In this document: piece by piece, positions 7,083-12,459 of the stretch
Numbering within the stretch: the first letter of the stretch is position 1
Layout of the letters: the number at the start of each line of letters is the position of its first letter
Origin: Candidatus Avelusimicrobium gallicola
Lineage (GTDB): Bacteria > Elusimicrobiota > Elusimicrobia > Elusimicrobiales > UBA9959
Direction: 5' to 3'
Length of the DNA: 56,315 nucleotides
Assembly: GCA_020722185.1 (NCBI GenBank)
Contig: DYLH01000001.1
Location: forward strand, 1-56,315
Notes under the pieces: model-generated
The model's database searches: none
Told to the model about the DNA's origin: nothing
What the model saw: the letters and a program-made list of their open reading frames with translations, nothing else
Made by a program: the position numbers and the translations under genes

Positions 7083-8444
7083 ATGAAATTCAAAAAAGTT
7101 TATATTTGCTCATCTTGCGCAGCGCAATATTCCAAATGGCAAGGCCAATGCCCTGCGTGTGGAAAATGGAATACTCTCATAGAAGATGTTATATCTGAAT
7201 CTTTACCCAAAGAAAGAAAAAACATTACTGAATTTAGTTCTCCCGCCATTAAATTGGACAAAGCCTGTCAGAGCAAGTTTGAGCGCAAGAAAACGGGAAT
7301 ATCTGAGCTGGACAGAGCTTTAGGCGGAGGACTTATAAAAGGTCAGATAGCTCTGCTTGCTGGCCCTCCTGGAATAGGGAAAAGCACCTTAATGCTTGAG
7401 GCCGCAAATGGTTGTTCGAAGAATGGCCTAATATCTCTCTATATTTCCGGCGAGGAGTCATGCGAACAGGTTTCCTCAAGAGCGGCAAGGCTTAAAGTTA
7501 AGAGCGAAAACATATATTTGATGTCTGAAACAAATCTTGTGAAAATAATTGAGGAGATAAAAAAAATAAAGCCTTCAGTCGCTATAATAGATTCAATTCA
7601 GACAATATATCATCCGGAAATAGGCTCAGCCTCTGGCGGCATTTCTCAGATAAGAGAATGCGCGGCTGAGTTATTGCGTATGGCCAAACAAAATTCAATA
7701 TCTCTTTTCATACTTGGGCATGTGACAAAAGAAGGGGATTTGGCCGGTCCCAAAATACTTGAGCATATGGTTGACACAGTTCTCTATTTTGAAAGTGAAA
7801 AAAGCGGAGCTTATAGGCTTCTCAGGGCTCAAAAGAATCGTTTTGGCCCTGTTGACGAATTAGGCATATTTGAAATGACGGATACTGGCCTTGTGTGCGC
7901 TCTGGATAGTTTTTCTTTTGTTTCTGAGGACAAGGAAAGTGTGTGTGGGAGAGCCCGCACGGTTTTTTTTGAGGGGACAAGACCTGTCACTGGTGAGATA
8001 GAGGCTCTTGTAAATAAAACTTTTTATCCATATCCGCGCAGAATATTCAATGGAATAGAAAATTCCAGAGCGCAGATGCTTGTGGCAGCGATAGAAAAAA
8101 ATGTTCAGCTTCGTTTCGACACTTATGACATCTTTGCTGGAGTAAAGGGCGGGCTCAAAACAAAAGATCCCGCTTGTGATTTAGCTTTCTGCGCCGCTGT
8201 TATTTCTTCTCTTAGAGATATTCCAATTCCAGGAGATTGGGCCTTTCTTGGCGAGGTTGGTATATTGGCGTCTGTTTCCTCTTGTTCATATCTGTCTCAG
8301 CGCGTGGCTGAGCTTGAAAGACGAAATTTTAAAAAGATATTCATCCCGGCTTCTTTCAAAGAAAAAAAAGAATCTAAAGTGGATTTATGTAGGGTTAAGG
8401 ATTTGAAAGAGCTTTATTCTCGAATTTCCGCAAAAGCGCAGTAA
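7083..8444 (+). CDS. radA: DNA repair protein RadA
   Basis: RecA-related branch-migration helicase acting in recombination repair, 453 residues. It has an N-terminal four-Cys zinc finger (C9, C12, C23, C26), Walker A GPPGIGKST near residue 94, the RadA-specific KNRFG motif near residue 252, and a C-terminal Lon-protease-like domain without protease function. Length and order are canonical. The ATG lies one base after the stop of the MCE gene. Downstream genes continue the radA-yacL-ispD-ispF-cysS order known from Firmicutes. Confidence 0.97.
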   Translation: MKFKKVYICSSCAAQYSKWQGQCPACGKWNTLIEDVISESLPKERKNITEFSSPAIKLDKACQSKFERKKTGISELDRALGGGLIKGQIALLAGPPGIGKSTLMLEAANGCSKNGLISLYISGEESCEQVSSRAARLKVKSENIYLMSETNLVKIIEEIKKIKPSVAIIDSIQTIYHPEIGSASGGISQIRECAAELLRMAKQNSISLFILGHVTKEGDLAGPKILEHMVDTVLYFESEKSGAYRLLRAQKNRFGPVDELGIFEMTDTGLVCALDSFSFVSEDKESVCGRARTVFFEGTRPVTGEIEALVNKTFYPYPRRIFNGIENSRAQMLVAAIEKNVQLRFDTYDIFAGVKGGLKTKDPACDLAFCAAVISSLRDIPIPGDWAFLGEVGILASVSSCSYLSQRVAELERRNFKKIFIPASFKEKKESKVDLCRVKDLKELYSRISAKAQ

Positions 8445-8451
8445 ATTATTG

Positions 8452-8457
8452 TAGAAT
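8452..8457 (+). promoter_or_regulatory. -10-like box upstream of the PIN/TRAM gene
   Basis: TTGTAGAATATAAT contains a TAGAAT -10-like box identical in context to the one before topA. Transcription from here would begin near 8464, just before a terminator-like hairpin. No clear -35 box was found. Confidence 0.3.
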
Positions 8458-8470
8458 ATAATATTATTCG

Positions 8471-8503
8471 GGCCTATTTAGGAAACTCTATTAGGCCTTT
8501 TTT
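8471..8503 (+). terminator. Terminator-like hairpin abutting the Shine-Dalgarno of the yacL-type gene
   Basis: GGCCTA at 8471-8476 pairs perfectly with TAGGCC at 8492-8497 around a 15-base loop, followed at once by six T (8498-8503). The Shine-Dalgarno AGAGG (8504-8508) and the ATG (8515) come right after. The loop contains CTCTA (8486-8490), complementary to TAGAG at 8503-8507 over the Shine-Dalgarno. It may be the radA terminator, an attenuator for the following operon, or both. Confidence 0.5.
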
Positions 8504-8514
8504 AGAGGTAAATT

Positions 8515-9504
8515 ATGATAACATGGATATTCAGGGGTCTTGCCTTGGTAGGAACTCCTATCGTTTGTTATTTTTCTATAGCTAAAAATCTTAACAGCGT
8601 TCTTGTTGGCTTTTTTTTAGGTTTGCTTATGATAGGCATTGAGTATGTGCTTGAAAATACAAAACTTTCAACTCTGATAATAGGCGTTTTAGGCGCTGCT
8701 GTTGGTATAATCCTTGCCAAATTATTTGACTATACAGTTTACCAGATAGGAAGTGAGTCTGTTAATGCTTTTTGGTCTAAAGTTAATTTTATACTCAAAT
8801 ATGTACTTGCGATTTTGGGTATGATGATAGGAGTGAAGAAAGTAAGTGAAATAGAAGATCTGGATACAGATATATCTCAATTAGGCAAAAAGGTTGGCAG
8901 AAGTATAAAAGTTTTGGAATTAAGTTGTGTAATAGATGGCAGAATACTCGACATATGTGAGACGGGATTTATTTCTGGTTCTATAGTTATACCTCGTTTT
9001 ATAATAGATCATCTTCATAAATTGACTGAATCTAAAGATCCTATGGATAAGGCCAAGGGCAGACGTGGACTTGATGTATTGGCCCGACTTCAGGAGACCA
9101 AAGCCTTGCCCTTTAAGGTGATAGAGAGAGATATGAAGGAAATAGAGGATATTTCGACAAAAACTGTAATGGTTGCCAAAGAGCTAAAGAGTTCAATAGT
9201 AACCGTTGATTTCAATATAAATAAAATTGGAGCTCTGGAAAATGTTCCAGTACTCAATATAAACGATCTTTCAATAGCCCTTAAACCTGTAGTCTTGCCG
9301 GGTGAGGATATGCATATCTTTGTAATGAAAGAGGGCAAAGAAAGATCTCAAGGCGTGGGGTACCTTGATGATGGCACTATGGTTGTTGTAGAGGATGGGC
9401 GAGACAGCATAGGCAAAAAAATAGAGGTTGTTGTTCAATCTATACTTCAGACATCTCAGGGAAGGATAATCTTTACAAAATTAAATAAGAACAATGGCAA
9501 ATAG
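8515..9504 (+). CDS. yacL: Membrane-anchored PIN/TRAM-domain protein (YacL family)
   Basis: Integral membrane protein of 329 residues with about four hydrophobic helices in residues 1-110, a PIN nuclease-fold domain (about 130-250) and a C-terminal TRAM RNA-binding domain (about 258-325). PIN acidic residues are visible in CVIDGRI, in the KGRRGLD region and in SIVTVDFNI; the first motif has Cys where many relatives have Ser/Thr before VIDGR. The substrate of this family is not established; an RNase role is assumed from the fold. It follows radA and overlaps ispD by 11 bases, exactly the neighbourhood of yacL in Bacillus, which supports the call. Confidence 0.9.
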   Translation: MITWIFRGLALVGTPIVCYFSIAKNLNSVLVGFFLGLLMIGIEYVLENTKLSTLIIGVLGAAVGIILAKLFDYTVYQIGSESVNAFWSKVNFILKYVLAILGMMIGVKKVSEIEDLDTDISQLGKKVGRSIKVLELSCVIDGRILDICETGFISGSIVIPRFIIDHLHKLTESKDPMDKAKGRRGLDVLARLQETKALPFKVIERDMKEIEDISTKTVMVAKELKSSIVTVDFNINKIGALENVPVLNINDLSIALKPVVLPGEDMHIFVMKEGKERSQGVGYLDDGTMVVVEDGRDSIGKKIEVVVQSILQTSQGRIIFTKLNKNNGK

Positions 9505-10207
9505 ACTCATAAGAGTTGCGGCTATTGTGCTGGCAGCCGGCGTCTCGAGACGTTTTGGCAGGGATAAGCAATTTGAAAAGATTGGGGGCAGGGAGATTAT
9601 AGCGATAGGCGTTGAGAATTTTTTGAAAGTTCCCGAAGTAAAGAAGATAGTTATAGCTTTTTCCAGGTCAAATATAGATAAGGGCAGATGTATTTTTAGT
9701 AGTCCCAGAATTGAAATAGTTGAAGGTGGAGAGACAAGAATGCAGTCTCTTTTTAAGGCTTTTTCTGCTTTGAGGTGTGAATACGATATAGTATGTGTGC
9801 ACGACGGCGCTAGACCTTTTGTTCAAAGAGATCTCATAAAGAATCTGATTAAGTATTCATTAAAACATAAGGTTGCAATACCTGTGGTCCCTCTTAAAGA
9901 CACAGTTAAAAAGATTCTAAAAAATAGAGTAATTGAGACAATAGACAGAAATGTTCATTTCGCTGTTCAGACTCCGCAATGCTATCAATACTCTATATTA
10001 AAGAAAGCCCTTTCTCATTTTGAAGAAAATATGGATCTTACAGATGATTCTCAATTGGCGGAAAAAATTGGAGTAAAACCTTTTGCCGTCAAAGGGGATT
10101 ATTTAAATTTCAAAATAACTACTCCAGAAGATATAAAATTGGCGGAGGTAATGTATGAAAAAGAAATCAAAAAAAATAATTTCAAAAAGAAAGCAGATGC
10201 CTTTTGA
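9494..10207 (+). CDS. ispD: 2-C-methyl-D-erythritol 4-phosphate cytidylyltransferase
   Basis: Third step of the MEP isoprenoid pathway: CTP plus MEP gives CDP-ME. The 237-residue protein has the nucleotide-binding N-terminus VLAAGVSRRFGRDKQF, the VHDGARPFV motif, IPVVPLKDTVK and the VQTPQCYQ and DDSQLAE regions that shape the active site. The C-terminus is a lysine-rich tail overlapping ispF. It starts inside the end of the PIN/TRAM gene (11-base overlap) and itself overlaps ispF by 11 bases, so the three are translationally linked. Confidence 0.95.
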   Translation: MANRLIRVAAIVLAAGVSRRFGRDKQFEKIGGREIIAIGVENFLKVPEVKKIVIAFSRSNIDKGRCIFSSPRIEIVEGGETRMQSLFKAFSALRCEYDIVCVHDGARPFVQRDLIKNLIKYSLKHKVAIPVVPLKDTVKKILKNRVIETIDRNVHFAVQTPQCYQYSILKKALSHFEENMDLTDDSQLAEKIGVKPFAVKGDYLNFKITTPEDIKLAEVMYEKEIKKNNFKKKADAF

Positions 10208-10682
10208 TTTTAGAGTGGGTTTTGGCTACGACATACACAGAATGACTGATGGCAGAGAACTTATACTTGGCGGATATAAGATTGATTATCCCAAGGGGAT
10301 GCTTGGACATTCCGATGGAGATTTGGTCATACATAGCGTATGCGATGCTATTTTAGGCGCTATTAATGAAGGAGAAATAGGTGTTTATTTTCCGCCAACA
10401 GATCTCACTCTTATGGGTATTTCAAGCTCTGTTATAGCAGAGAAGGTATTGGAAATGCTTAAAAAAAGAAAAGCCAGAATAAATCAAATAGATGTGACCT
10501 TAGTTGCGGAAGAGCCGAAAATAAAGCCCTACTATGAGCCTATAAAAAAGTCGCTTTCCAAAATATTTGATTTACCTGCGCAAAGAGTTAGTTTTAAGGC
10601 CAAAAGCATGGAAGGGCTTGGTGAGGTTGGGAGAGGGGAGGCTATGATATGTTATGCTGTTGCAAGCATAATATTGGGATAA
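10197..10682 (+). CDS. ispF: 2-C-methyl-D-erythritol 2,4-cyclodiphosphate synthase
   Basis: MEP-pathway enzyme converting CDP-ME 2-phosphate to the cyclodiphosphate, 161 residues from the chosen ATG. The zinc ligands are visible as DIH (in GFGYDIHRM) and the His in the HSDGDLVIHSVCDAILGA stretch; the C-terminal segment KAKSMEGLGEVGRGEA is typical. An upstream ATG at 10155 would add a lysine-rich 14-residue extension lying inside ispD, so 10197 is preferred because it gives the family's usual length and N-terminus. ispD and ispF are adjacent, consecutive-pathway genes. Confidence 0.95.
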   Translation: MPFDFRVGFGYDIHRMTDGRELILGGYKIDYPKGMLGHSDGDLVIHSVCDAILGAINEGEIGVYFPPTDLTLMGISSSVIAEKVLEMLKKRKARINQIDVTLVAEEPKIKPYYEPIKKSLSKIFDLPAQRVSFKAKSMEGLGEVGRGEAMICYAVASIILG

Positions 10683-11071
10683 TAATATTTTTTGCCTTTT
10701 CCATTTTTTTCGCTTCATGTATGCCTAAGGGTGAAAAGAGAGTTTTTGTTTATTCTGATTTGAAAGGTAAAAATCAAAAAAGCGCTGAGTTCCTAAAGAC
10801 ATATGAACTTTCAAAAAATCAGAATTATGAGCTTGAGAGCGCTTTTAATGATATTACCGAATCGGCTTCCTTAAAAACTCTTGGGAAAAGGGAAGAAGGA
10901 TATTTTTCTTATTCAATTTTCCCGGAAGGCGCTATTTATCCTTTTTCAAAGGTTTCTGTTAAATGCGTTTTTTCCTCAGATTCATCTTATGAAAAGGCCA
11001 GAGAGGTGTGTAAAGAATTCTTTAATGAGATTGATACTAGATATTCCAAATTACAGGAGAAGCTCAAATGA
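10649..11071 (+). CDS. Putative lipoprotein of unknown function
   Basis: Protein of 140 residues with a signal peptide ending in a lipobox (IFFASC, Cys at about residue 24), so it is probably a lipid-anchored periplasmic or surface protein. The mature part is short, charged and rich in Lys, Glu and Phe, with no recognised domain; the segment EGAIYPFSKVSVKCVFSSD looks like paired beta strands. It begins 34 bases inside ispF and ends in an ATGA overlap with cysS, so it is locked into this operon. Bacillus has gltX and cysE at this place. Function unknown. Confidence 0.72.
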   Translation: MLCCCKHNIGIIIFFAFSIFFASCMPKGEKRVFVYSDLKGKNQKSAEFLKTYELSKNQNYELESAFNDITESASLKTLGKREEGYFSYSIFPEGAIYPFSKVSVKCVFSSDSSYEKAREVCKEFFNEIDTRYSKLQEKLK

Positions 11072-12459
11072 GACTTTATAATACTTTGACAAAAAAAGAA
11101 GAAGAATTAAAACCCATAAAACAGGGAGAAATTGGAATTTATGCCTGTGGTCCGACAGTTTATCACTACGCTCATATAGGAAATTTGAGGACATATATTC
11201 TGGAAGATTTTTTGAGGCGTTCACTTGAATACATCGGATTTAAGGTAAAGCATGTAATGAATATAACCGATGTGGGGCATTTGACATCAGATGCAGATGA
11301 GGGCGAGGATAAAATGGAGCTTGGTTCAAAAAGGGAGGGGAAAAGCGCGTGGGAAATAGCAGATTTTTACACTAGGGCTTTTTTCAAGGATTTTGACTCT
11401 CTTAACTGCTTGCGCCCAACTATTTCTTGCAAGGCAACAGACCACATAGCTGATATGATAGAACTGGTAAAAAAGCTTGAAAAAAATGGTTATACATATA
11501 GAACTTCGGATGGGATTTACTACGATACTTCTAAATTCGCAAATTATGGAATTCTGGCTGGCAAGGCAAATTTGGAGGGGATTAAAGCCGGAGCTAGAAT
11601 AGAATTTAGCAAAGAGAAAAGAAATCCAACTGACTTTGCTTTGTGGAAATTCTCTAAAGAAGGGGAAAAAAGGCAAATGGAATGGGACTCGCCATGGGGG
11701 AAAGGTTTTCCGGGCTGGCACATAGAATGTTCAGCCATGAGCATGAAATATCTGGGAGAGACTTTTGATATGCATTTAGGCGGTATAGACCATGTGGCTA
11801 TACATCATACAAATGAAATAGCTCAAGCTGAAGGGGCCACAGGCAAAAAATTTGTAAATCATTGGGTTCACATGGAATTTCTCGTCATAGGCAGTTCAGA
11901 AAAAATGTCTAAATCAGCTGGAAATTTTCTAACATTAAATTCAATTGTGGAAAAAGGATACTCTCCTCTTGTGTATAGATATTTCTGCTCTCAGGCGCAT
12001 TACAGGAAACAGCTAGAATTTTCTTTTGAGGCCATTGCCGCCGCTGATAGGGCTCTTAAAAATTTAAGAAATCTCGTTCTAGATGTGTTTGAAAAAGCGC
12101 AGGGTAAGCCAGAGGAGGCTTTTGATTGCGATAAGTTATTGAAATTTAAAAAAGCAATAGAGGATGATCTGAATATCCCTATGGCTGTTTCTATTTTGTG
12201 GGAGACTTTGAGAGATAATTCACTTGCCAATTCAAAAAAAATGTGGCTGGCTATGGAGTTTGAAAAAGTGCTTGCTTTTGGAATCTTTGAGAAAGAAAAA
12301 GAAGATGTTCCCGCTGAAATTATTGCTCTTTCCAATGAGAGATGGGAAGCAAAGAAGAATAAGGATTTTGCAAGGGCTGATGCTTTAAGAGAAAAAATAA
12401 AAAGTCTCGGATGGCTTGTAGAAGACACCGCTCAGGGACCAAGGGTAAAAAAGGCATGA
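11068..12459 (+). CDS. cysS: Cysteinyl-tRNA synthetase
   Basis: Class I aminoacyl-tRNA synthetase of 463 residues charging tRNA-Cys. The HIGH-type motif is HIGN in YHYAHIGNLRTY. The zinc/cysteine site shows Cys in YACGPTVY, the GWHIECSAM segment and the following HHTNEIAQAE. The KMSKS motif is exact (SEKMSKSAGN). The C-terminal DALR-like and RADALREKIKSLGW region is normal. The start overlaps the lipoprotein stop (ATGA) and the end overlaps the next gene in the same way. Confidence 0.97.
   Translation: MRLYNTLTKKEEELKPIKQGEIGIYACGPTVYHYAHIGNLRTYILEDFLRRSLEYIGFKVKHVMNITDVGHLTSDADEGEDKMELGSKREGKSAWEIADFYTRAFFKDFDSLNCLRPTISCKATDHIADMIELVKKLEKNGYTYRTSDGIYYDTSKFANYGILAGKANLEGIKAGARIEFSKEKRNPTDFALWKFSKEGEKRQMEWDSPWGKGFPGWHIECSAMSMKYLGETFDMHLGGIDHVAIHHTNEIAQAEGATGKKFVNHWVHMEFLVIGSSEKMSKSAGNFLTLNSIVEKGYSPLVYRYFCSQAHYRKQLEFSFEAIAAADRALKNLRNLVLDVFEKAQGKPEEAFDCDKLLKFKKAIEDDLNIPMAVSILWETLRDNSLANSKKMWLAMEFEKVLAFGIFEKEKEDVPAEIIALSNERWEAKKNKDFARADALREKIKSLGWLVEDTAQGPRVKKA

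Follow-up and report, generated by a model that had tools for sequence, protein, structure and literature searches.

What does a terminator-like hairpin do when it stands between a promoter and the first gene of an operon? The question is raised by the 70-nt gap between radA and a yacL-like gene in Candidatus Avelusimicrobium gallicola, within the stretch of 56,315 nucleotides analysed here (the window; assembly GCA_020722185.1, contig DYLH01000001.1). In the preliminary description, made from the letters of the window, the hairpin was read as an attenuator or translation switch. The reading that we favour, with a probability of roughly one half, is that a conserved promoter is combined with a species-specific, weak and leaky terminator or 5' hairpin, which acts without switching.

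The genome behind the window comprises 1,595,269 bases in 60 contigs and is 91.84% complete. All genes of the locus lie on the forward strand. The gene upstream of the gap, radA (sms; 7083..8444), was recognized by the NCBIfam profile TIGR00416 at 487.9 bits, above the cut-off of 403.05. It is followed by the yacL-like gene (8515..9504), whose product matches over residues 129–259 the structure PDB 3ix7 of the uncharacterized protein TTHA0540 (E 8.8e-22), which we take to be a PIN fold; a TRAM domain is only weakly indicated (19.2 bits, under the cut-off of 21), membrane segments at the N-terminus were noted by eye, and the protein shares 48% identity with a sequence from the Elusimicrobia MAG contig NVTF01000029.1. 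Downstream of yacL, the genes ispD, ispF, an unnamed small protein and cysS occupy 9494..12459, with Pfam matches to IspD (1.9e-55), YgbB for ispF (5.8e-54) and tRNA-synt_1e for cysS (2e-98). The gene order from mlaF to nif3, including yacL-ispD-ispF-(unnamed)-cysS, is identical in the other two genomes of the genus, referred to here as G001 and G002 (the genome of the window being G000). The unnamed small protein (10649–11071) is kept in both at 38–42% identity; it shows by eye a signal-like N-terminus with a lipobox-like cysteine, and searches returned no Pfam match above cut-off and no NCBIfam match for it. The start codon of yacL, ATG at 8515, is considered firm because ATGATAAYATGG is common to the three genus genomes and because most family homologues in the tblastn search align from residue 1 of this start. 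Its Shine-Dalgarno sequence, GAGG at 8505..8508, lies within GAGGT in all three genomes. The literature searches found no paper combining four of radA, yacL, ispD, ispF and cysS, nor one combining disA, yacL and ispD with the operon, and Elusimicrobiota are not mentioned in the accessible part of PMC13323073.

The best-supported part of the locus is the putative promoter upstream of the hairpin. A promoter-like block, AAATTATTGTAGAATATAATATTAT (8443..8467), has 21 of its 25 positions unchanged across G000, G001 and G002, and contains the -10-like box TAGAAT at 8452–8457. In the alignment of the three genus genomes, which covers the whole 70-nt gap of the window and, of the longer gaps of G001 (160 nt) and G002 (113 nt), the 73 nt nearest yacL, the conserved block AAATTATNGTARAATRTAWTATTAT is followed by a short variable leader and then by the GAGGT Shine-Dalgarno sequence, and both flanks of the block align poorly. 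Motif frequencies were counted in a sample of 765,907 bases of the window's own genome, where genes were taken from a simple ORF picker (at least 90 aa) that misses short genes, as well as ispF in the window, so that some of the 'gaps' contain unlisted genes. The 215 upstream regions of this sample contain TTGTANAAT 23 times in sense orientation against 8 in antisense, and TTGTANAATA 13 against 5 times (24 when both strands of the entire sample are counted); the longer forms TTATNGTANAAT (2 versus 2) and TATTGTANAAT (3 versus 3) show no enrichment upstream of genes. A -10-like element is thus conserved in the genus and, in the sampled genome, its short motif is enriched upstream of genes, as would be expected of a housekeeping promoter. 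Inspection of the letters upstream of TAGAAT revealed no good -35 hexamer, and a scan with generic sigma-70 and terminator consensus patterns, whose totals did not rise above those of shuffled sequences, listed neither the TAGAAT box nor the hairpin. By the usual spacing to the -10 box, transcription would be expected to start at about 8464–8466. Outside the genus, the radA-yacL gaps of G007 (L053) and G008 (L051), both from one other genus, also show TAAAATAT by eye.

The preliminary description had proposed, as one of two possibilities beside read-through from radA, that a transcript beginning at this box carries the hairpin, which agrees with the conservation of the block in all three genomes and with the sense excess of TTGTANAAT. 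It had also held that transcription of the whole downstream operon must pass the hairpin; this part stands for yacL and does not for ispD, ispF and cysS, as promoters inside the preceding genes are possible.

A letter check returned the box, the stem and the T-run at the positions originally given. The hairpin (8470..8498) consists of a 7-bp stem, 8470–8476 paired with 8492–8498, and an inner 4-bp helix, 8479–8482 paired with 8487–8490, and the run TTTTTT at 8498..8503 leaves 11 nt (8504–8514) before the ATG, as had been counted before. With a transcript assumed to begin at 8464, the predicted pair probabilities in the stem are 0.86–0.97; the hairpin alone has a free energy of -11.8 kcal/mol and is the best fold at each transcript length tried from 8498 to 8515. 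When the 70-nt gap was shuffled with dinucleotide composition preserved, only 20 of 2000 sequences reached a T-tailed hairpin of -11.8 kcal/mol or better, so the hairpin is modestly better than chance for its own sequence; given the number of gaps in a genome, this figure of 1% is itself modest. Nothing stands out in the fold of the gap taken as a whole (z -1.56) or in that of the region 8430–8540 (z -0.37), and 22 of the 129 tandem gaps of 40–200 nt in the sample have a z of -1.5 or lower.

These figures bear on the possibility that the hairpin is neutral: an inverted repeat that arose by chance beside a T-run, the leader being AT-rich, and that influences neither transcription nor translation. 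The ordinary fold of the whole gap speaks for it, as do the occurrence of the hairpin in the window's species alone among those compared and the lack of strand bias in intergenic T-runs. It has to contend with the rarity of such a T-tailed hairpin among the shuffled sequences, and with the distribution of comparable hairpins in the genome, the sense reading of tandem gaps being richer in those of equal score than the antisense reading or the interior of genes. We regard neutrality as possible, though not as the probable state of affairs.

That distribution was obtained from the same genome sample. Of 184 tandem gaps, 13 carry a hairpin of -11.5 or better followed by at least five T when read in sense and 8 when read in antisense; the counts are 5 of 50 for convergent readings and none of 78 for divergent ones. 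Taken together with the shuffles, the tandem counts indicate that the window hairpin is moderately unlikely to have arisen by chance and that it is one of a small class. On a score of the d'Aubenton-Carafa type, the window hairpin reaches +6.0 and ranks 60th of 1082 hairpins, which is weak; the tandem gaps, 31.5 kb in all, contain 8 hairpins scoring at least 5 in sense and 2 in antisense, and 1.41 Mb of coding DNA contains 49 with both strands counted. Runs of five T and of five A are equally frequent, both in tandem gaps (97 versus 101 of 184) and within 60 nt downstream of stop codons (57 versus 54 of 141). In the sample, then, intrinsic termination looks rare, with little general sign of it, and the equal T5 and A5 frequencies, together with the 5 of 50 convergent readings, imply that the window hairpin may do nothing. 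The antisense tandem gaps, little poorer in hairpins than the sense ones, likewise weigh against a leaky terminator. Rho was detected above its curated cut-off in all three genus genomes and may do most of the termination work in the genus. A few real intrinsic terminators probably exist in this genome, among which the window hairpin would be a weak one.

A T-tailed hairpin of -18.5 kcal/mol was observed between two genes at L095:460–485(-490), 17 nt before the start chosen by us for the second gene, whose product appears lipoprotein-like by eye; the longest reading frame of that gene would start at 473, inside the hairpin. With this distance to the start codon, the placement of a hairpin directly before a gene is not unique to the window.

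The relatives place the hairpin at the level of the species. A T-tailed leader hairpin is present in one of the three genus genomes, that of the window, and no T-run occupies the equivalent place in the other two. In G001, the promoter block runs straight to the Shine-Dalgarno sequence with no stem; that this species manages with no leader hairpin at all weighs against the leaky-terminator reading. The leader of G002 carries an unrelated 5-bp stem, GCCCG/CGGGC, with a 7-nt loop and no T-run, at 13 nt from the -10 box as against 12 nt in the window genome. The stem at 8470–8498 finds no alignable counterpart in relatives, so covariation is not countable for it. Upstream of the promoter block, a CCGCAT/ATGCGG hairpin was noted in the gap of G001 (L002), and GC-rich inverted repeats just 3' of radA in that of G002. 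A tRNA relic had been considered in the G001 gap on account of the string GTTCGAGCC; ARAGORN found no tRNA in L002, L003, L101 and L102. Directly after radA and ahead of the promoter block, G002 (L003) has a hairpin of -9.8 with a T-rich tail, which would fit a loose pressure to separate the radA and yacL units.

At the family level, a gap length was obtained for 49 of the 59 genomes; six gave no yacL match and four no match to its N-terminus (L051–L054), and L031 is likewise outside the gap counts. Five of the 49 radA-yacL gaps (L001, L003, L004, L005 and L042) have a T-tailed hairpin that reaches -6 kcal/mol, and only that of the window has it within 20 nt of the yacL start. Gaps shorter than 40 nt, including seven 4-nt overlaps, were found in 34 of the 49, indicating that yacL usually follows close behind radA. 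By its own account, the preliminary description would be refuted if the stem were unconserved and no shortened transcripts appeared at 8503; the first of these two is borne out by the counts of one genome in three and one gap in 49. Among the genomes compared, three of them in the genus, the hairpin shows as a species-level feature.

Some gaps of the family contain inverted repeats of other kinds. In several relatives, a dispersed palindromic element was observed, with a core AAGGAACTCCTTA set within long inverted arms made of short degenerate tandem units (L012:1385–1500 in G010, L004 in G011, L042 in G022, and L108–L119). The arm units differ by genus, being GGGTAKA-like in G010 and GCCATANGC-like in G022, and in the 12 stretches inspected the arms vary between copies yet pair within each copy. 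The exact core was counted on both strands 36 times in G010, 25 in G011, 21 in G020, 19 in G021, 13 in G022, 9 in G007 and 3 in G003, with the reversed control at zero in these seven genomes; eight other genomes have one copy each, and the remaining 44 of the 59, those of the window's genus included, have none. No literature on this element was found among the matches listed. By eye, a different inverted element, GGATTAAA ... TTAATCC, was seen in the radA-yacL gap of three genomes (L005, L010 and L050, genus g8); no further copy of the L010 stretch turned up in G012.

Could the window hairpin be a degenerate copy of the AAGGAACTCCTTA element? To the eye, TTAGGAAACTC in its loop is similar to the core, and both G010 and G011 have copies of the element between radA and yacL. 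The zero count of exact cores in G000, G001 and G002 speaks against this candidate. With up to one mismatch, the core is rarer in the three genus genomes than its reversed control (14 versus 22), and a search of its own genome with the 83-base stretch gave no second copy and, besides the stretch itself, five weak partial matches, the best at E 0.115. We give this origin next to no credence.

The proposed switch rested on CTCTA in the loop (8486–8490) being complementary to TAGAG (8503–8507) over the Shine-Dalgarno sequence, so that the two could pair as a hairpin exclusive of the stem; we add the variant of a pseudoknot formed with it. The five complementary bases exist, and a pseudoknot with the stem is feasible on paper, with one partner in the loop and the other downstream, according to our own geometry. 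In ViennaRNA computations, which leave pseudoknots unscored, the alternative pairing has a probability of 0.001 and, when forced, folds at -9.7 against -13.8 kcal/mol, 4.1 kcal/mol worse than the structure with the stem; the five pairs alone amount to -3.3. The GAGG is 66–82% unpaired in the ensemble and is, therefore, mostly open. Neither sister leader contains the hairpin, and the claim of two exclusive structures is not borne out by these energies; control of translation by such pairing seems very improbable.

Regulated attenuation was weighed separately: a factor such as a protein, a small molecule or NusA/NusG-dependent pausing would control termination at 8498–8503 and hence the isoprenoid and cysteinyl-tRNA synthetase genes. 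The position behind a promoter and before an operon is suitable, and there is precedent in E. coli, where many 3' ends are located within 5' UTRs and read as premature termination (PMC7815308). No mutually exclusive structures of comparable stability were found in the leader (pseudoknots unscored), no ATG, GTG or TTG that could open a leader peptide occurs between about 8464 and 8514, and the three genus genomes yielded no conserved sensor or stem with covariation, both sisters having kept the promoter block and gene order while the hairpin is absent or unrelated. Rfam gave no match in the window at the gathering score; the five weak matches below it reach at best 19.5 bits, where 48 are needed, and a best E of 0.44. 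We consider regulated attenuation unlikely, and the combined attenuator or translation switch of the preliminary description is not supported by the unconserved stem and the negligible alternative fold. A variant would be a fast-turnover, lineage-specific attenuator linking the ispD/ispF and cysS operon to a signal, through the T-tailed hairpin about 35 nt from the start or through a Shine-Dalgarno pseudoknot, with sister species bearing a different hairpin or none; this we hold to be quite unlikely. Were a regulated attenuator real, ispD/ispF and cysS would come under one leader control. As it stands, the locus matters little beyond documenting, for an uncultured genus of Elusimicrobiota, a promoter motif (TTGTANAAT) and a sparse set of terminator-like hairpins.

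Under the preferred reading of a conserved promoter with a leaky hairpin, a housekeeping promoter common to the genus would start, at about 8464–8466, a presumably single transcript for yacL-ispD-ispF-(unnamed)-cysS. Its leader of about 50 nt would have gained, in the species of the window, the GC-rich hairpin and the six T. If active at all, the hairpin would most likely act as a weak, constitutive and leaky intrinsic terminator, trimming read-through from radA and thus insulating the two units; by partial termination, it would also cut short a constant fraction of the transcripts that start at the operon's promoter. In full transcripts, it would stay at the 5' end and leave the Shine-Dalgarno sequence open, and control by a ligand or by ribosomes would presumably play no part.

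Three kinds of known system invite comparison. The transcription attenuators of 5' leaders, such as those of pyrBI, trp and the T-box leaders, share with the window a terminator-like hairpin placed between promoter and first gene, whereas the window has no antiterminator of competing stability, no leader peptide and no Rfam match at the gathering score, and its sisters no such hairpin. The stem-loops that stabilize bacterial mRNAs at their 5' ends, for example in ompA, resemble the window hairpin in its position about 5 nt from the expected 5' end of the transcript; they differ in that a T-run directly after the stem would be superfluous for stabilization, an effect that is here predicted only. 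From intrinsic, Rho-independent terminators the window hairpin departs in its weak score, in standing between a promoter and a gene and not where an operon ends, and in being unconserved; termination here is a prediction from sequence. It resembles them in the GC-rich stem with six T directly behind it, and in being the predicted best fold as soon as position 8498 is transcribed.
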